Shown here piece by piece: positions 8,072-15,242 of a DNA stretch of 45,810 bases; within the stretch, counting starts at the first letter, position 1; each line of letters starts with the position of its first letter. The translations under genes and the position numbers were made by a program. The stretch lies in NCBI RefSeq assembly GCF_000167195.1, contig NZ_AADV02000010.1, positions 1 to 45,810 on the forward strand. The letters run 5' to 3'. Origin of the DNA: Crocosphaera watsonii WH 8501. Lineage in GTDB: Bacteria > Cyanobacteriota > Cyanobacteriia > Cyanobacteriales > Microcystaceae. The notes under the pieces are model-generated. The model worked only from the letters and a program-made list of their open reading frames with translations, was not told the DNA's origin and did not search any database.

Positions 8072-9430
8072 ATGACCTCAACCCCACGCCGTTACCATAT
8101 CACTACCTTTGGCTGTCAAATGAATAAAGCTGACTCGGAACGCATGGCCGGTATTCTAGAAGATATGGGGTTTAAATGGTCTCAAGACCCCAACGGGGCT
8201 GATTTAATCCTTTATAATACCTGTACCATCCGAGATAATGCCGAACAAAAGGTTTATTCTTATTTGGGAAGACAGGCTAAACGTAAACACAAAAACCCTG
8301 ATTTAACTTTAGTGGTAGCTGGATGTGTAGCGCAACAGGAAGGGGAAAAAATCTTAAGACGGGTTCCAGAATTAGATTTAGTAATGGGACCCCAACACGC
8401 TAACCGCTTAGAAGATTTATTAACACAGGTATTTGATGGCAATCAGGTCATTGCCACCGAACCCATTCATATCGTAGAAGATATCACCAAACCCCGTCGA
8501 GATAGTACCGTCACTGCTTGGGTCAATATTATTTATGGTTGCAATGAAAAATGTAGTTATTGTGTGGTTCCTAGTGTTAGAGGTGTGGAACAATCTCGTA
8601 CTCCTGAAGCTATTTATGCGGAGATGGAACTATTAGCAAAACAAGGGTACAAAGAAGTTACTTTACTGGGACAAAATATTGATGCTTATGGACGAGATTT
8701 ACCAGGGGTTACTGCAAGCGGAAGACATAAACATACGTTAACAGATTTGTTATACCAAGTACACGATATTCCTGGCATCGAAAGACTAAGATTTGCTACC
8801 AGTCATCCCCGTTATTTTACCGAAAGATTAATCAAAGCTTGTGACGAATTGCCTAAAGTTTGTGAACATTTCCATATTCCTTTTCAATCAGGAGATAATG
8901 ATGTTTTAAAGGCGATGAAAAGGGGTTACACTCATCAAAAATATCGTAAAATTATCGATAAAATTCGTGAATATATGCCCGATGCTTCTATCAGTGCAGA
9001 TGCCATTGTGGGTTTTCCAGAAGAAACCGAAGAACAGTTTGAAAACACTTTAAAGTTAGTGGATGATATCGGCTTTGATCAACTCAATACTGCTGCTTAT
9101 TCTCCTCGCCCTGGAACCCCGGCAGCCCTTTGGGAGCAGCAATTAAGCGAAGAAGTGAAAAGCGATCGCCTACAAAGATTAAACCATTTAGTAGCACAAA
9201 AAGCTGCACAACGTTCTCAACGTTATTTAGGAAGAATAGAAGAGGTATTAGTAGAAGATCAAAACCCTAAAGATAATAGTCAAGTTATGGGAAGAACTCA
9301 AGGCAATCGTTTAACCTTTTGTAAGGGAAATATCGATGAATTAAAAGGACAATTAATCAAGGTGGAAATTACGGAAGTTCGTGCTTTTAGTTTGACAGGA
9401 GAAGCGATTGTTAGTATTTGTAATGCTTAA
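8072..9430 (+). CDS. miaB: tRNA-2-methylthio-N6-dimethylallyladenosine synthase MiaB
   Basis: MiaB methylthiolates i6A37 in tRNAs reading UNN codons, using two 4Fe-4S clusters and SAM. Seen in 452 residues: the UPF0004 domain with cysteines C15 (FGCQMNKAD), C51 ([10 protein letters not shown]) and C85 (VAGCVAQ); the radical-SAM motif [13 protein letters not shown] with C157, C161 and C164; and a C-terminal TRAM domain (about 380-448). All features of a full-length, active enzyme are present. The gene stands alone, with a relE scrap upstream and an unrelated restriction-modification operon 70 bp downstream. Confidence 0.97.
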
Positions 9431-9500
9431 ACTAAGGTAAATATAGAAAAAATTAGAATATCTTGCTTTATAATCAAGGAGTGTATTCAAAATATATGAA

Positions 9501-10550
9501 ATGCTAGAACCTAAAATTCTCAAAGATATAGAGTCAGCATTTAGACAGTTTGGCTACGAAGCAGAAGATGTTTTCAATGCAATTGCTTATATATATAGTA
9601 ACATTTTTAGCATTAAAGCCTCTGAAAAACTTAGTGGGGTTCTTGAAAAGGGAAAATTGATTTCAGATATTGTATTTCAAGATGATTGCTTAAAAAAAAC
9701 AATTAATTCTTATGTCAAAAAAGACAAAGATGGAGAAAACTTAACTATTTTTTATCAATATTTCCTCGCCAAAAGATTTCGAGATATTAGTGGAAAATTT
9801 TTCACTCCACATCCAATAGCGATGCAAATGGTTAAAATGCTTCCAGTTAAAGCAAATGCTGTAATTATAGATCCTACTTGTGGTGGTGGAACGTTTTTGA
9901 AGACAGTTAGAGAACAATGGAAAAATATACCTTGTCATTTAATTGGAAATGATGTTGACCAAATGTTAATTTGCTTAACTGAATTAGTATTAAAAATAAA
10001 TAAAAATCATCAAGAAAATACTTCTTTATTGACATCGAATATTTATCAACCAAATTCACAAATACAATCATTTTTTGGACAAATAGACTATATTTTAGCT
10101 AATCCACCTTTTTCACTACCTGTAGATATTTTTACCTCTAATAGTAGATTATTTGAGTCAGGATATAGAAATAGTGATGCGTTGTTGATTGATTTATCTT
10201 TTAAATTATTAAAGCCTGGTGGTCGTTTAGTTTGCCTACTACCCCATTCAATTATCTCTAATAAAGAGTATCAAAATTTAAGAGAAATTGTTGAAAAAGA
10301 TTGGTACTTAACCGCAGTTATTATCTTACCAGAAGGTATTTTTAAATCAACAGCAAGCACAACAACTCGTGCTGACATTATTGTTTTAGATAAGAAGAAA
10401 AATGAGCAAGTAGATAGAAATAGAAAAACCATTTTCGCTAATATTTCTTCTTTGGATATCCCATTAAATCATAGACAGAAACAAGTTACAACTAACGACC
10501 TAGAAAATTTATTGAAAAATAGTAAAGTATCAGAAATTCTAGGAATTTAA
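9501..10550 (+). CDS. N6-adenine DNA methyltransferase (HsdM-like, gamma class)
   Basis: This is the modification subunit of the compact restriction-modification operon. In 349 residues it has GKFFTPHPIAMQMV (98-111, motif X position), the SAM-binding DPTCGGGTFL (124-133, motif I), catalytic NPPF (201-204, motif IV), and late motifs around LLKPGGRLVCLLPHS. A short N-terminal helical region (1-95) replaces the longer HsdM N-terminal domain, so it is smaller than typical type I HsdM (about 500). The ATG at 9501 is the only plausible start. AAGGAG (9476-9481) is rather distant, and a tiny out-of-frame ATG AAA TGC TAG (9496-9507) overlaps the start. The specificity gene follows after 20 bp. Confidence 0.85.
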   Translation: MLEPKILKDIESAFRQFGYEAEDVFNAIAYIYSNIFSIKASEKLSGVLEKGKLISDIVFQDDCLKKTINSYVKKDKDGENLTIFYQYFLAKRFRDISGKFFTPHPIAMQMVKMLPVKANAVIIDPTCGGGTFLKTVREQWKNIPCHLIGNDVDQMLICLTELVLKINKNHQENTSLLTSNIYQPNSQIQSFFGQIDYILANPPFSLPVDIFTSNSRLFESGYRNSDALLIDLSFKLLKPGGRLVCLLPHSIISNKEYQNLREIVEKDWYLTAVIILPEGIFKSTASTTTRADIIVLDKKKNEQVDRNRKTIFANISSLDIPLNHRQKQVTTNDLENLLKNSKVSEILGI

Positions 10551-10570
10551 AATCATTAAGAATATTAACC

Positions 10571-11230
10571 ATGAAAAAAAACGGTTACACATTTTTTACA
10601 ATAGCCAATACTTGTCAAATAGAATCAGGGGTCTGGAATCCTTATCATTATAAGGAAAATAAATCTAATGATACTTTATCCGACTTTGCTAATATTAAAA
10701 AAATAAAAAATAATAAACAAGACATTAGTATTTCCGAATTTGCTCCTATTGAATATAAAAATATTCCCAAAGGTGAATTACTAACATTCTCGTTAGAAGA
10801 TAATTCTTTAGAAGAAGGGCGTTATAGTCTGGTTGGTGAACAGGTTTTATTATTTGGTACTATGCGTGCTTATCTCGGTAATGTTTTAGTAACACCAAAA
10901 GCAAATTGGATAGGCAAAAGAAGCCCTTTATTTTACCCTATTAATTCTGAGTTTGTTCAGATCATTCCTAAAGATAAATTACTCTATTTTTGGTGGGGAT
11001 ATTTAAAGTCATCGTTATTTCTTAATCAAATTCCTACAGGAAGTGGTGGTACTCGTCCAAGAGTTAGTGTTGATAATTTAGAAAAAATACCTATAAGCGT
11101 TCCCATATTAAGGGAACGTGAGAAAATTAATAATAGTTTAATAGAAATCGCCGAACAATCTTGGATTAACTTTATGACTTGTAGAAAAATTATCAAACAA
11201 ACTAATTCGTTGGATGAGCATTATGCCTGA
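10571..11230 (+). CDS. Half-size restriction-modification specificity subunit (HsdS-like)
   Basis: The 219-residue protein resembles one target-recognition half of HsdS: a variable DNA-recognition part, then GSGGTRPRVSVDNLEKIPIS at about 158-177 and PILREREKINNSL leading into a helical dimerisation spacer. Full HsdS proteins have two such halves (about 400 residues); one half implies recognition as a dimer and a symmetric site. It sits between the methylase (20-bp gap) and the nuclease-like gene, which starts within its last codons. The target sequence cannot be predicted from the protein alone. Confidence 0.75.
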   Translation: MKKNGYTFFTIANTCQIESGVWNPYHYKENKSNDTLSDFANIKKIKNNKQDISISEFAPIEYKNIPKGELLTFSLEDNSLEEGRYSLVGEQVLLFGTMRAYLGNVLVTPKANWIGKRSPLFYPINSEFVQIIPKDKLLYFWWGYLKSSLFLNQIPTGSGGTRPRVSVDNLEKIPISVPILREREKINNSLIEIAEQSWINFMTCRKIIKQTNSLDEHYA

Positions 11231-11945
11231 GATTTCACACCAAAAATTTCAAGAATTACGAAATACTTTTGCTCCACTGATTGGGATTAAAATAGACTGG
11301 TTAACTATTCCTGATCGAGCTTTACAAGGTTTTGAACCTAGTCAAATTGCTGTGATCATTAATACGCTTTTAGATGGAATTTTACCTCAGATTCAACTCA
11401 TTTCAACCAATGAGCAAAACCAAGAAAAACTAAAAAATATTGGATTACAAAAATCACCTAGTAACATAGGGGAAAGGGAAAGTTATCCTGACTATATTCA
11501 TGTTTCTGGGACAAGAGTAGAGTTAAAAGGTTTATTTGTAGATAATATTACTCTCAAATTGAAAAGACCACCAACTCGAAGAGAACCTTCAGCAAGGTTA
11601 AAAGAAAATATAACAATAGATACGATAGATAGTGAAAGAGATGTTTTATTAATTGCAGCTATCCAACTTAGAGAAGATAATGGATTTTGCTCACCTTTCA
11701 TTGTTGATATTGAAGTTATTTCAATGGTAGAGTGTATTAGGGCAAGAGATAAACGATTGTTAGATACTGGTGGTAAGTGGATTAATGGTATTCCTAAAGT
11801 AGTGAGTCAAAAAGGTAGAAAAAAACTACAATTAGGTCAAACACTAATGGACAATGACTACGAAAAAGATACTAATTTTGGTAAACTCAAGAGAATACCA
11901 TATCAGCCACTACAAGATTTTTTGAATAAGTGGACTATCAGATAA
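11214..11945 (+). CDS. Putative PD-(D/E)xK restriction endonuclease
   Basis: This 243-residue protein is not recognised as a named family. It carries YPDYIHVSGTRVELKG, giving P92-D93 and E103-x-K105, the spacing of a PD-(D/E)xK nuclease centre. A conserved-looking block (REPSARLKENITIDTIDSER, about 122-141) follows. There is no ATPase or SNF2-type translocase motif, so it is not HsdR. Its start overlaps the specificity gene by 17 bases (or 8 if ATG 11223 is used), indicating translational coupling. By position and motif it is probably the restriction subunit of the operon; cleavage activity is inferred. Confidence 0.65.
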   Translation: MSIMPEISHQKFQELRNTFAPLIGIKIDWLTIPDRALQGFEPSQIAVIINTLLDGILPQIQLISTNEQNQEKLKNIGLQKSPSNIGERESYPDYIHVSGTRVELKGLFVDNITLKLKRPPTRREPSARLKENITIDTIDSERDVLLIAAIQLREDNGFCSPFIVDIEVISMVECIRARDKRLLDTGGKWINGIPKVVSQKGRKKLQLGQTLMDNDYEKDTNFGKLKRIPYQPLQDFLNKWTIR

Positions 11946-12364
11946 AGTTTTTTTGGACTCTTTCAAAAATAAGCCTGAGAGATTTCCTAACTTAACTAAC
12001 CCTGATAATATCTTAAGCTAATCACTCAGCTAGTGATCCAATGCTTGAAATAGCTTATATAACTGGGTTAGAGCAATTTTTAAGTTTAATTGCTTAACTT
12101 CTGGCTTAACTCCCTAAACTTAGGTTGTATCTTCAAGAGATAAGTTTAATCATATAAGTGGTTAGGGAACAACAGTGGAGCAGTTAGTTCACCTGCTAAA
12201 AGTGAAGTCCGTTAAAAGTTTGTCGCCTAAACCATGACAAACTTGGGGATTAAGTCACATTACCCCAAAGTAAAATGACCATTCCATCGGATTAATCTTG
12301 CAGAAACTACTAACTGTTTTTTCCTTATCTAAAGTGGTTTGCAACAATTTTGATACTAGGGGAT
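11946..12364. other. Noncoding gap with several hairpins; possible structured RNA
   Basis: No reading frame here looks real. Four stems occur in a row: GCAATT/AATTGC (12073-12078, 12088-12093); CCCTAA/TTAGGG (12112-12117, 12162-12167) with ACTTA/TAAGT just inside; TTTGTC/GACAAA (12219-12224, 12236-12241); and TTGGGG/CCCCAA (12243-12248, 12263-12268). I do not recognise 6S, tmRNA, SRP or a known riboswitch. Strand and even transcription are unknown. Confidence 0.35.
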
Positions 12365-13537: not shown

Positions 13538-13621
13538 AGGAGGATACAAAATTTTAAATAAATAAGTATTCTTAACCCATTATATCAAATATTGGATTAT
13601 TGTAAAAAGGTTAATTAATTG

Positions 13622-15242
13622 ATGAAAATTTCGACTAAAACTATTAATATCATTCTTTTCGCTGCGATCGCTTGTGCTGTTATTCTCAGGATAATTAATT
13701 TAGGAAGTCGAGAATTTTGGTACGATGAGGTCTTATCTCTACTATTATCCACTGGACAAAAAGGACAATATCAAAACCCTCAAGATATCCCTGTTATCTT
13801 AGCAGATTATACCCGTTTATTAAACATTCCTGTTGAAAATAGCTTTTCTGAAAGGATTGGTGGCTGAGCCTCATCCTTTTCTTTTCTTTTTAGAACAACA
13901 TTTTTGGTTAAGAATATGGGGTAATTCTGAAGCAGCAATGCGCAGTATTATTGTATTATTTAGTCTAGGCTCTATGGGGTGTGCTTATGGTTTAGGAAGA
14001 AGATTATTAGGTTTTCAAGGGGGTTTATTATTTGCTGCTTTATTAGGATTAAATCCTTATTATCTATTCCATTCTTTAAATATCAGGATGTATTGTTCAT
14101 TGGTATTTTGGGTTTTACTTAGTAGTTTATCTTTACTAGAATTAATTACCCTAAATACTTCAGAAACTAAAAATAGTTATTCTAATAAATCTAAGATTTT
14201 TTTGACAATATCATTGATTTTATCCGCAGCGTCAGGGTTGATGACATTTTACTATTTTGGTGTGTTCTTTTTGATCTTTGCTACCTTAGTTTTGTGGTTA
14301 GACCGACAAAAATGGTGGCAGTATGCCTTGTATTTAATCAGTAGTATTATTATTACCATTCCTTGGGTTTGGTGGGGAACGAGGCAACAATTAAGGAATG
14401 CTGACTTAGGAAGGTTTTCCAGTCAAGATAGTTTTATAGCTGCTATGACTAGACATTTACAAGAATTTCTTGATGTGCTAGGCATTCATTTATTAGTTGG
14501 TGATTGGTCGAGTATTTTACCTGATTATCTAGTGACAATTGCTGGATTATTTGTTTTTATTGGTTTGGTTTATTGTATATGGCAACTATATAAAAATAAT
14601 CAAAATAAATTATTAATTATTAGCTTATTATTAGGTTTATTTCCTTTATTATTAATGTTGCTTTTAGATATTGTAACGAGAAAATTTACCTTGGCTTTCG
14701 GGTTTGGTCGTTCCGTTATTTTTGTGTTACCTGGATGCTTGTTATTGTTAGCAACTTTCCTAGAAAAAGGAGTTATTAAATTTAAAAATATTACTATTTT
14801 AAGCTTAATATTATTGTGTTTAGTAATTAATATGGCCGATTTTAGTTTACGTTCTCGTCAAATGTTCCATCAAATAGCTGATATTATTAATGAACAGCCC
14901 AATCAACCTACTTTAATTATTATGAATTCTCAAGCTTGGGGTCATGTGTTAAGATTAGCTTATTATCTACCTACCACTTTCCCTATTAGTTTACTAGCGC
15001 AAAACTCTGATAATTTATCCCCTATTTTAGCAGAAAACTTAAGTAAAGATTCTGAGCAGTATCAACGAATTCTCTGGTTAGATAGCGAACGACCTGTGTG
15101 GGGAAAACCAAGCACAGAAGAGCAAAAACAAGGGGTTAAAACTGTCTTAGATGACAATTATAATTTACAGTTTTTTCAAAGATTAGTAGGAACATGGAAG
15201 TTAGATAATTTTATGATGAATGTTTATGAAAAAATAGAGTAA
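13622..15242 (+). pseudogene. Membrane glycosyltransferase (GT39/ArnT-like), frameshifted
   Basis: A polytopic protein of about 540 residues is read in two frames. The first has an N-terminal membrane helix and FWYDEVLSLLLSTG, the acidic lumenal motif of Dol-P-Man/ArnT-type enzymes. It ends in a stop at 13867. The second frame carries on with GLVAEPHPFLFFLEQHFWLR and about nine further membrane helices. At 13844-13847 the gene has TTTT; with TTT it reads VENSFLKGLVAEPHP without a break, so one extra T explains everything. Either the gene is newly broken or this is a base-calling error in a homopolymer. Such enzymes transfer sugars from polyprenyl-phosphate donors; the acceptor is unknown. Confidence 0.8.

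Follow-up and report, generated by a model that had tools for sequence, protein, structure and literature searches.

Positions 9501–11945 of the Crocosphaera watsonii WH 8501 window, by which we mean the whole stretch of 45,810 nucleotides analyzed here, hold a real, functional-looking, and mobile restriction-modification (R-M) system of an already known kind. It is very probably a compact, horizontally acquired operon that would work like AhdI (type IIH), with a methylase (M), a half-size specificity protein (S), and a small endonuclease (R), each a polypeptide of its own. The arrangement of the three genes is already known; the R family carries no name in the Pfam, NCBIfam, and PHROGs libraries. 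The features on which the argument turns are as follows.

9501..10550, + strand: ORF of the M subunit, 349 aa
10571..11230, + strand: ORF of the S subunit, 219 aa
11214..11945, + strand: ORF of the R protein, 243 aa for the full ORF; 240 aa from the probable start at 11223
11487..11528, + strand: proposed active-site codons of R, P92-D93...E103-L-K105, invariant in 12/12 R proteins
9413..11981, no strand: segment lacking at the corresponding site of two congeners, ~2.57 kb, carrying M-S-R only; borders approximate

The layout is tight, with 20 bp between M and S and an overlap of 17 bp between S and R, just as the first-pass annotation had described it; the motifs it had named, DPTCGGGTFL and NPPF in M and P92-D93...E103-x-K105 in R, are also all present. 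R probably begins at 11223, because the first possible start codons of its relatives in three loci (L009, L010, and L011) align with Met4 of the window's ORF. The M subunit matches the Pfam family N6_Mtase over residues 84–339 (E 4.5e-26), has DPTCGGGTF as its motif I and the catalytic NPPF at N201–F204 (codons 10101–10112), and shares N201, P202, P203, and F204 with all 10 aligned M rows; by these marks it is a gamma-class N6-adenine DNA methyltransferase. Among solved chains, RM.BsaXI is the closest to it (8w0p, E 1.5e-16). The best PADLOC match of M is mad2, and the MADS defence system was considered and rejected: M scores 85.1 bits against an NCBIfam MADS2 cut-off of 720, and the window's R is hit by none of the PADLOC models. 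In the S protein, Pfam finds one Methylase_S stretch only (E 3.4e-8), and in the best five PADLOC rows for Specificity_I models, 17–37% of the model length is matched; judged by these profiles, S is a half-size specificity protein with one target-recognition domain (TRD). A shorter PADLOC model, "Specificity_II" (227 positions; "Type II specificity subunit"), is matched by 7 of the 11 aligned S proteins and is not seen for the window's own S among the best 25 of its 34 PADLOC rows.

M with a half-size S and a separate restriction endonuclease (REase) is described for AhdI, and the PshAI and BsaBI methyltransferases are said to be alike, in the sections of PMC3874165 and PMC4081073 that concern them; the name is "Type 1 1/2" methyltransferases in the former (Table 3 and a section of the text) and type IIH in the latter. 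M.AhdI is an M2S2 tetramer with an M of 60 kDa and an S of 25 kDa according to PMC2878638. The relevant passages of PMC8262939 treat types IIB, IIG, and IIH as single polypeptides, unlike PMC3874165 and PMC4081073, which we follow. The first-pass annotation correctly identified a methylase with a half-size S and, in the absence of HsdR, a small PD-(D/E)xK protein with its own gene, but its view that no named subtype corresponds to them does not survive the published descriptions of AhdI, PshAI, and BsaBI, at least as given in those sections, and the novelty of an undescribed defence system fails with it. By analogy, the operon fits the named subtype, type IIH or "Type 1 1/2." Like AhdI, it has a separate gamma-class M, a half-size single-TRD S (25 kDa in S.AhdI, 219 aa in the window), a separate predicted REase, and no HsdR; it differs from AhdI in that its M, at 349 aa, is shorter than the 60-kDa M.AhdI, in that the insertion has no C-protein gene, and in that M, S, and R lie in one operon. 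The likeness to AhdI, PshAI, and BsaBI is one of gene arrangement, and the subtype does not demand an REase homologous to R.AhdI, R.PshAI, or R.BsaBI. Both modification features of type IIH, the separate gamma-class M and the half-size single-TRD S, are found; as for the REase, R is a separate ORF with a conserved PD...ExK, and its REase-like fold and its link to the PADLOC model REase_II are suggestive.

Other known systems are further away. BsaXI likewise has a separate S, but its nuclease is fused to M in an RM subunit, whereas the window has the nuclease as a separate protein. In BcgI, the nuclease is fused to the methylase. The window's M is HsdM-like and its S is HsdS-like, as in type I HsdRMS systems, but the operon has no HsdR translocase and its S has one TRD, not two; types IIG and IIB differ in that the 349-aa M has no fused nuclease and R is an ORF of its own. 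Paper searches covering AhdI, type IIH, the methylomes of Microcystis, and S proteins with a single TRD brought up no recognizable description of this M-S-R triplet (REBASE was outside the search).

The operon has moved as a unit. Congener G387 aligns with the window as far as 9412 and resumes at 11982, the intervening stretch being 39 bp long; in congener G391 the alignment reaches 9409 and resumes at 11985 after 90 bp (the second piece being 359 bp at 72% identity); the site is empty in these two of the seven congeners compared. Congener G392 keeps the two flanks, separated by a stretch of 1.7 kb, and the other four match the miaB side only, within the stretches compared. The transferred unit thus comprises M, S, and R alone. 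The insertion appears to be recent, and a search for flanking repeats gave one shared 8-bp word only, which we take as chance. The stretch in G392 carries a 384-aa IscB-like ORF (L030 3877–5031; name by eye), and the 3' side of miaB is a variable spot, with the IscB-like ORF in one congener and the M-S-R operon in the window. Elsewhere in the window, at 13619–15242, an 82-aa and a 469-aa ORF overlap in different frames; the longer is weakly PMT_2-like, and the two may be a single glycosyltransferase gene broken by a frameshift.

With its own genome counted, R turned up in 4 of the 386 genomes searched across the phylum and in 3 of 196 closer relatives, and none of eight congeners (79–100% complete) has it. 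A scan of genome_contigs with R gave eight loci, in Dolichospermum, two Microcystis, Anabaena, and four metagenome-assembled genomes (MAGs) labelled Bacteroidales, Alphaproteobacteria, Chloroflexi, and Saprospiraceae, an assignment that rests on the labels; the R proteins of the "Alphaproteobacteria" and "Bacteroidales" loci are 82% identical, so one of the two loci may be misbinned. The R gene of the Saprospiraceae MAG (L012 5974–6741) appears to be frameshifted close to its 3' end, which may reflect an assembly error. Loci L002–L004 and L015 were taken as repeats of L005, L007, L008, and L006 because their contigs are equally long. The neighbourhood search that the first-pass annotation had proposed bore fruit: the order M-S-R is kept in all eight other genome_contigs loci, and M, S, and R are the only ORF families common to all nine (the 3' flanks of L010–L012 being short). 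S is well conserved within this first clade of loci, and its systems may therefore share one target. These observations also bear on a reading in which the locus belongs to a type I system with its HsdR supplied from another part of the genome and R is a bystander. The genome does have three HSDR_N matches on other contigs, but the insertion carries M-S-R only, S has one TRD where two would be expected, and R is co-inherited in all nine loci, so that we consider a distant HsdR hardly credible. Among viruses, six records of the phage collection, every one from Streptococcus suis, carry R, and in five of them the match has an identical position; the S. suis R as a query found three more relatives in viral_contigs, where scans with the queries P0003 and A3 found none, and plasmid searches with three R queries found none either.

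Crude NG86 estimates of dN/dS against the four cyanobacterial relatives, with dS near saturation, are ~0.12 for R, 0.10–0.25 for S, and 0.17–0.21 for M, and on these ratios purifying selection is shown to act on the system. Of the three subunits, R is the best conserved: its identity to the window's protein stands at 79–80% in the four cyanobacterial loci, 61–65% in L009–L011, and 41–44% in L013, L032, and L033, the corresponding values being 68–74, 43–45, and 15–19% for S and 65–66, 42–47, and 20–25% for M. (L012 is missing from the R matrix and L034 from all three; L014 was dropped as a near-copy of L013, and L007 was dropped from A5 and A6 as close to L006.) For a type II system, an R more conserved than M and S is the reverse of expectation.

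Whether R is a nuclease has to be argued from several sides. The PD...(D/E)xK pattern alone is weak evidence, as it arises in 17.6% of 20,000 shuffles of R and, among the ORFs of at least 150 aa in the nine loci, in 14 of 77, nine of these being the R ORFs themselves (5 of 68 among the others). What counts is that P92, D93, E103, L104, and K105 are invariant in all 12 R proteins, down to 40% identity. One could hold, nevertheless, that R is no nuclease at all but, for example, a regulator or a structural partner in which PD...ExK is accidental; such a view can appeal to the commonness of the pattern and to the family searches. Pfam gives nothing for R even at E 1, and its one NCBIfam row is at chance level (E 0.12). 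With all R proteins, Pfam gives two matches only (best E 0.082) and NCBIfam five single-member matches only (best E 0.014). The PDB searches stay at chance level both with the R sequence (best E 0.073) and with an 11-row R profile, whose best match, at E 0.017, is a ribosomal protein. Against it stand the invariant residues, the predicted fold, and a link to a known REase family.

An AlphaFold2 model of R from 12 sequences has a pLDDT of 85.1 and a pTM of 0.83, all five models being at or above 82.6, and a model from 9 sequences reaches 82.7 and 0.80. In the model, D93 precedes the strand at 94–96, and E103-x-K105 lies on the next strand, 101–109. An aspartate before one strand and ExK on the next is the layout of PD-(D/E)xK enzymes. 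The structure prediction called for by the first-pass annotation brought out a weak resemblance to restriction endonucleases: of the best 50 Foldseek rows from the PDB, 49 belong to restriction endonucleases or to MutH, HincII copies making up the majority, and the same 49 of 50 holds for the first model, from 9 sequences. The matches include Sau3AI (the best, E 4.7e-3, TM 0.27), HincII, NlaIV, EcoRV, SwaI, MutH, PvuII, and a domain of Eco15I; no row reaches E 1e-3, the query TM-scores of the best 50 lie at 0.14–0.31, and a viral fold library has no match at E 1e-3.

The link is to REase_II (PDLC03583), the only one of 5027 PADLOC models matched by any R protein; it is matched by 7 of the 12 (best E 0.0015), and the window's own R is not among them. 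At E 0.01, the model matches 14 of 386 cyanobacterial genomes, one weak match being the R gene of G149. When the R family is compared with four REase_II members by hhalign, the result is E 0.00016 at a probability of 50%, with two unrelated comparisons as controls at E 0.38 and 0.31; the PD pairs are aligned, as are the stretches DTNFxKxxRI and DTNFGKLKRI. The alignment pairs K115-L-K117 of R, however, and not E103-L-K105, with the ExK of REase_II, and the active sites are therefore not matched residue for residue. The REase_II members (L051 and L053–L055) differ further in length (~305 aa) and in the spacing from D to E, which is 14 residues against 10 in R, and they stand beside a convergent methylase of another type. 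Taken together, conservation, predicted fold, and the REase_II link make R very probably a PD-(D/E)xK-type nuclease; that it should be something else, we regard as very improbable.

A separate matter is how such a nuclease would find its target. The first-pass annotation supposed that it shares its S subunit with the methylase, and one can picture R docking on M2S2 and taking its specificity from S, as a motorless, ATP-independent split complex of type I/BcgI-like kind. The tight M-S-R operon with its S/R overlap speaks for docking, as does the presence of R next to M-S in all nine loci of the first clade. The wider family points the other way. In a second clade (L013, L032, and L033), R retains the 41–44% identity noted above beside different M-S modules that barely resemble the window's. 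The S proteins of this clade match PADLOC Specificity_I and Specificity_II models in 3/3, and the two that were scanned have no Pfam Methylase_S match. In S. suis, M-S is divergent from a small HTH protein, which is followed by R; the HTH protein belongs to Pfam HTH_3, and its best PADLOC match is HTH_VI (3.9e-8), ahead of Control_protein (4.1e-6). An HTH-R pair divergent from M-S resembles C-regulated type II systems. The M-S/HTH/R genes of L013 (3324–7460; OP662525) adjoin a PvuRts1I-like/SRA protein by Pfam, and the surrounding region carries annotations for phosphoglucomutase and Tet(O). In L032 and L033, R is convergent with S-M, and the ORF ends overlap; the 3' overlap of the R and S frames spans 90 bp in L032 (4629–4718) and 123 bp in L033 (6709–6831).

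Two more observations concern R away from any recognizable S. A virus record of 51.7 kb (L034), possibly a fragment, holds R with no N6_Mtase or Methylase_S match on it, and none of its 82 ORFs of at least 100 aa has a [DNS]PP[YFW] motif, other methylase families being outside the profile search; this R is perhaps a nuclease turned to attack host DNA. The homologue (L034 5995–6798; G514) lies in a phage-like contig with elongation-factor-like proteins, named by eye. The probable relatives in REase_II, for their part, adjoin in four neighbourhoods a methylase that is similar from one to the next and unlike M (N6_N4_Mtase by Pfam in the one scanned), and no S-like ORF was seen by eye in any of them (L051 and L053–L055). 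A shared S is thus probably wrong, and we consider docking unlikely. Because its lineage occurs next to three different kinds of methylase, or with none visible, R most likely reads its own target.

The operon would then work much as AhdI does. Two M and two half-size S subunits would assemble into an M2S2 methylase, which would methylate an adenine in each half of a symmetric, interrupted (bipartite) site. R, as a separate PD-(D/E)xK endonuclease, would act as a dimer that itself recognizes the same site and cuts it when unmethylated. We infer the M2S2 assembly, the symmetry of the target, the cleavage, and the autonomy of R from the likeness to AhdI and from the varied partners of R.

A new defence principle is unlikely. 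R may be the constant part of these systems, paired, if its probable REase_II relatives are included, with at least three modification modules. The operon is a further example, compact and widely transferred, of R-M systems intermediate between type I and type II, and with an R more conserved than M and S and set beside varied modules, the family offers a handy case for studying how a nuclease and a methylase keep one target.
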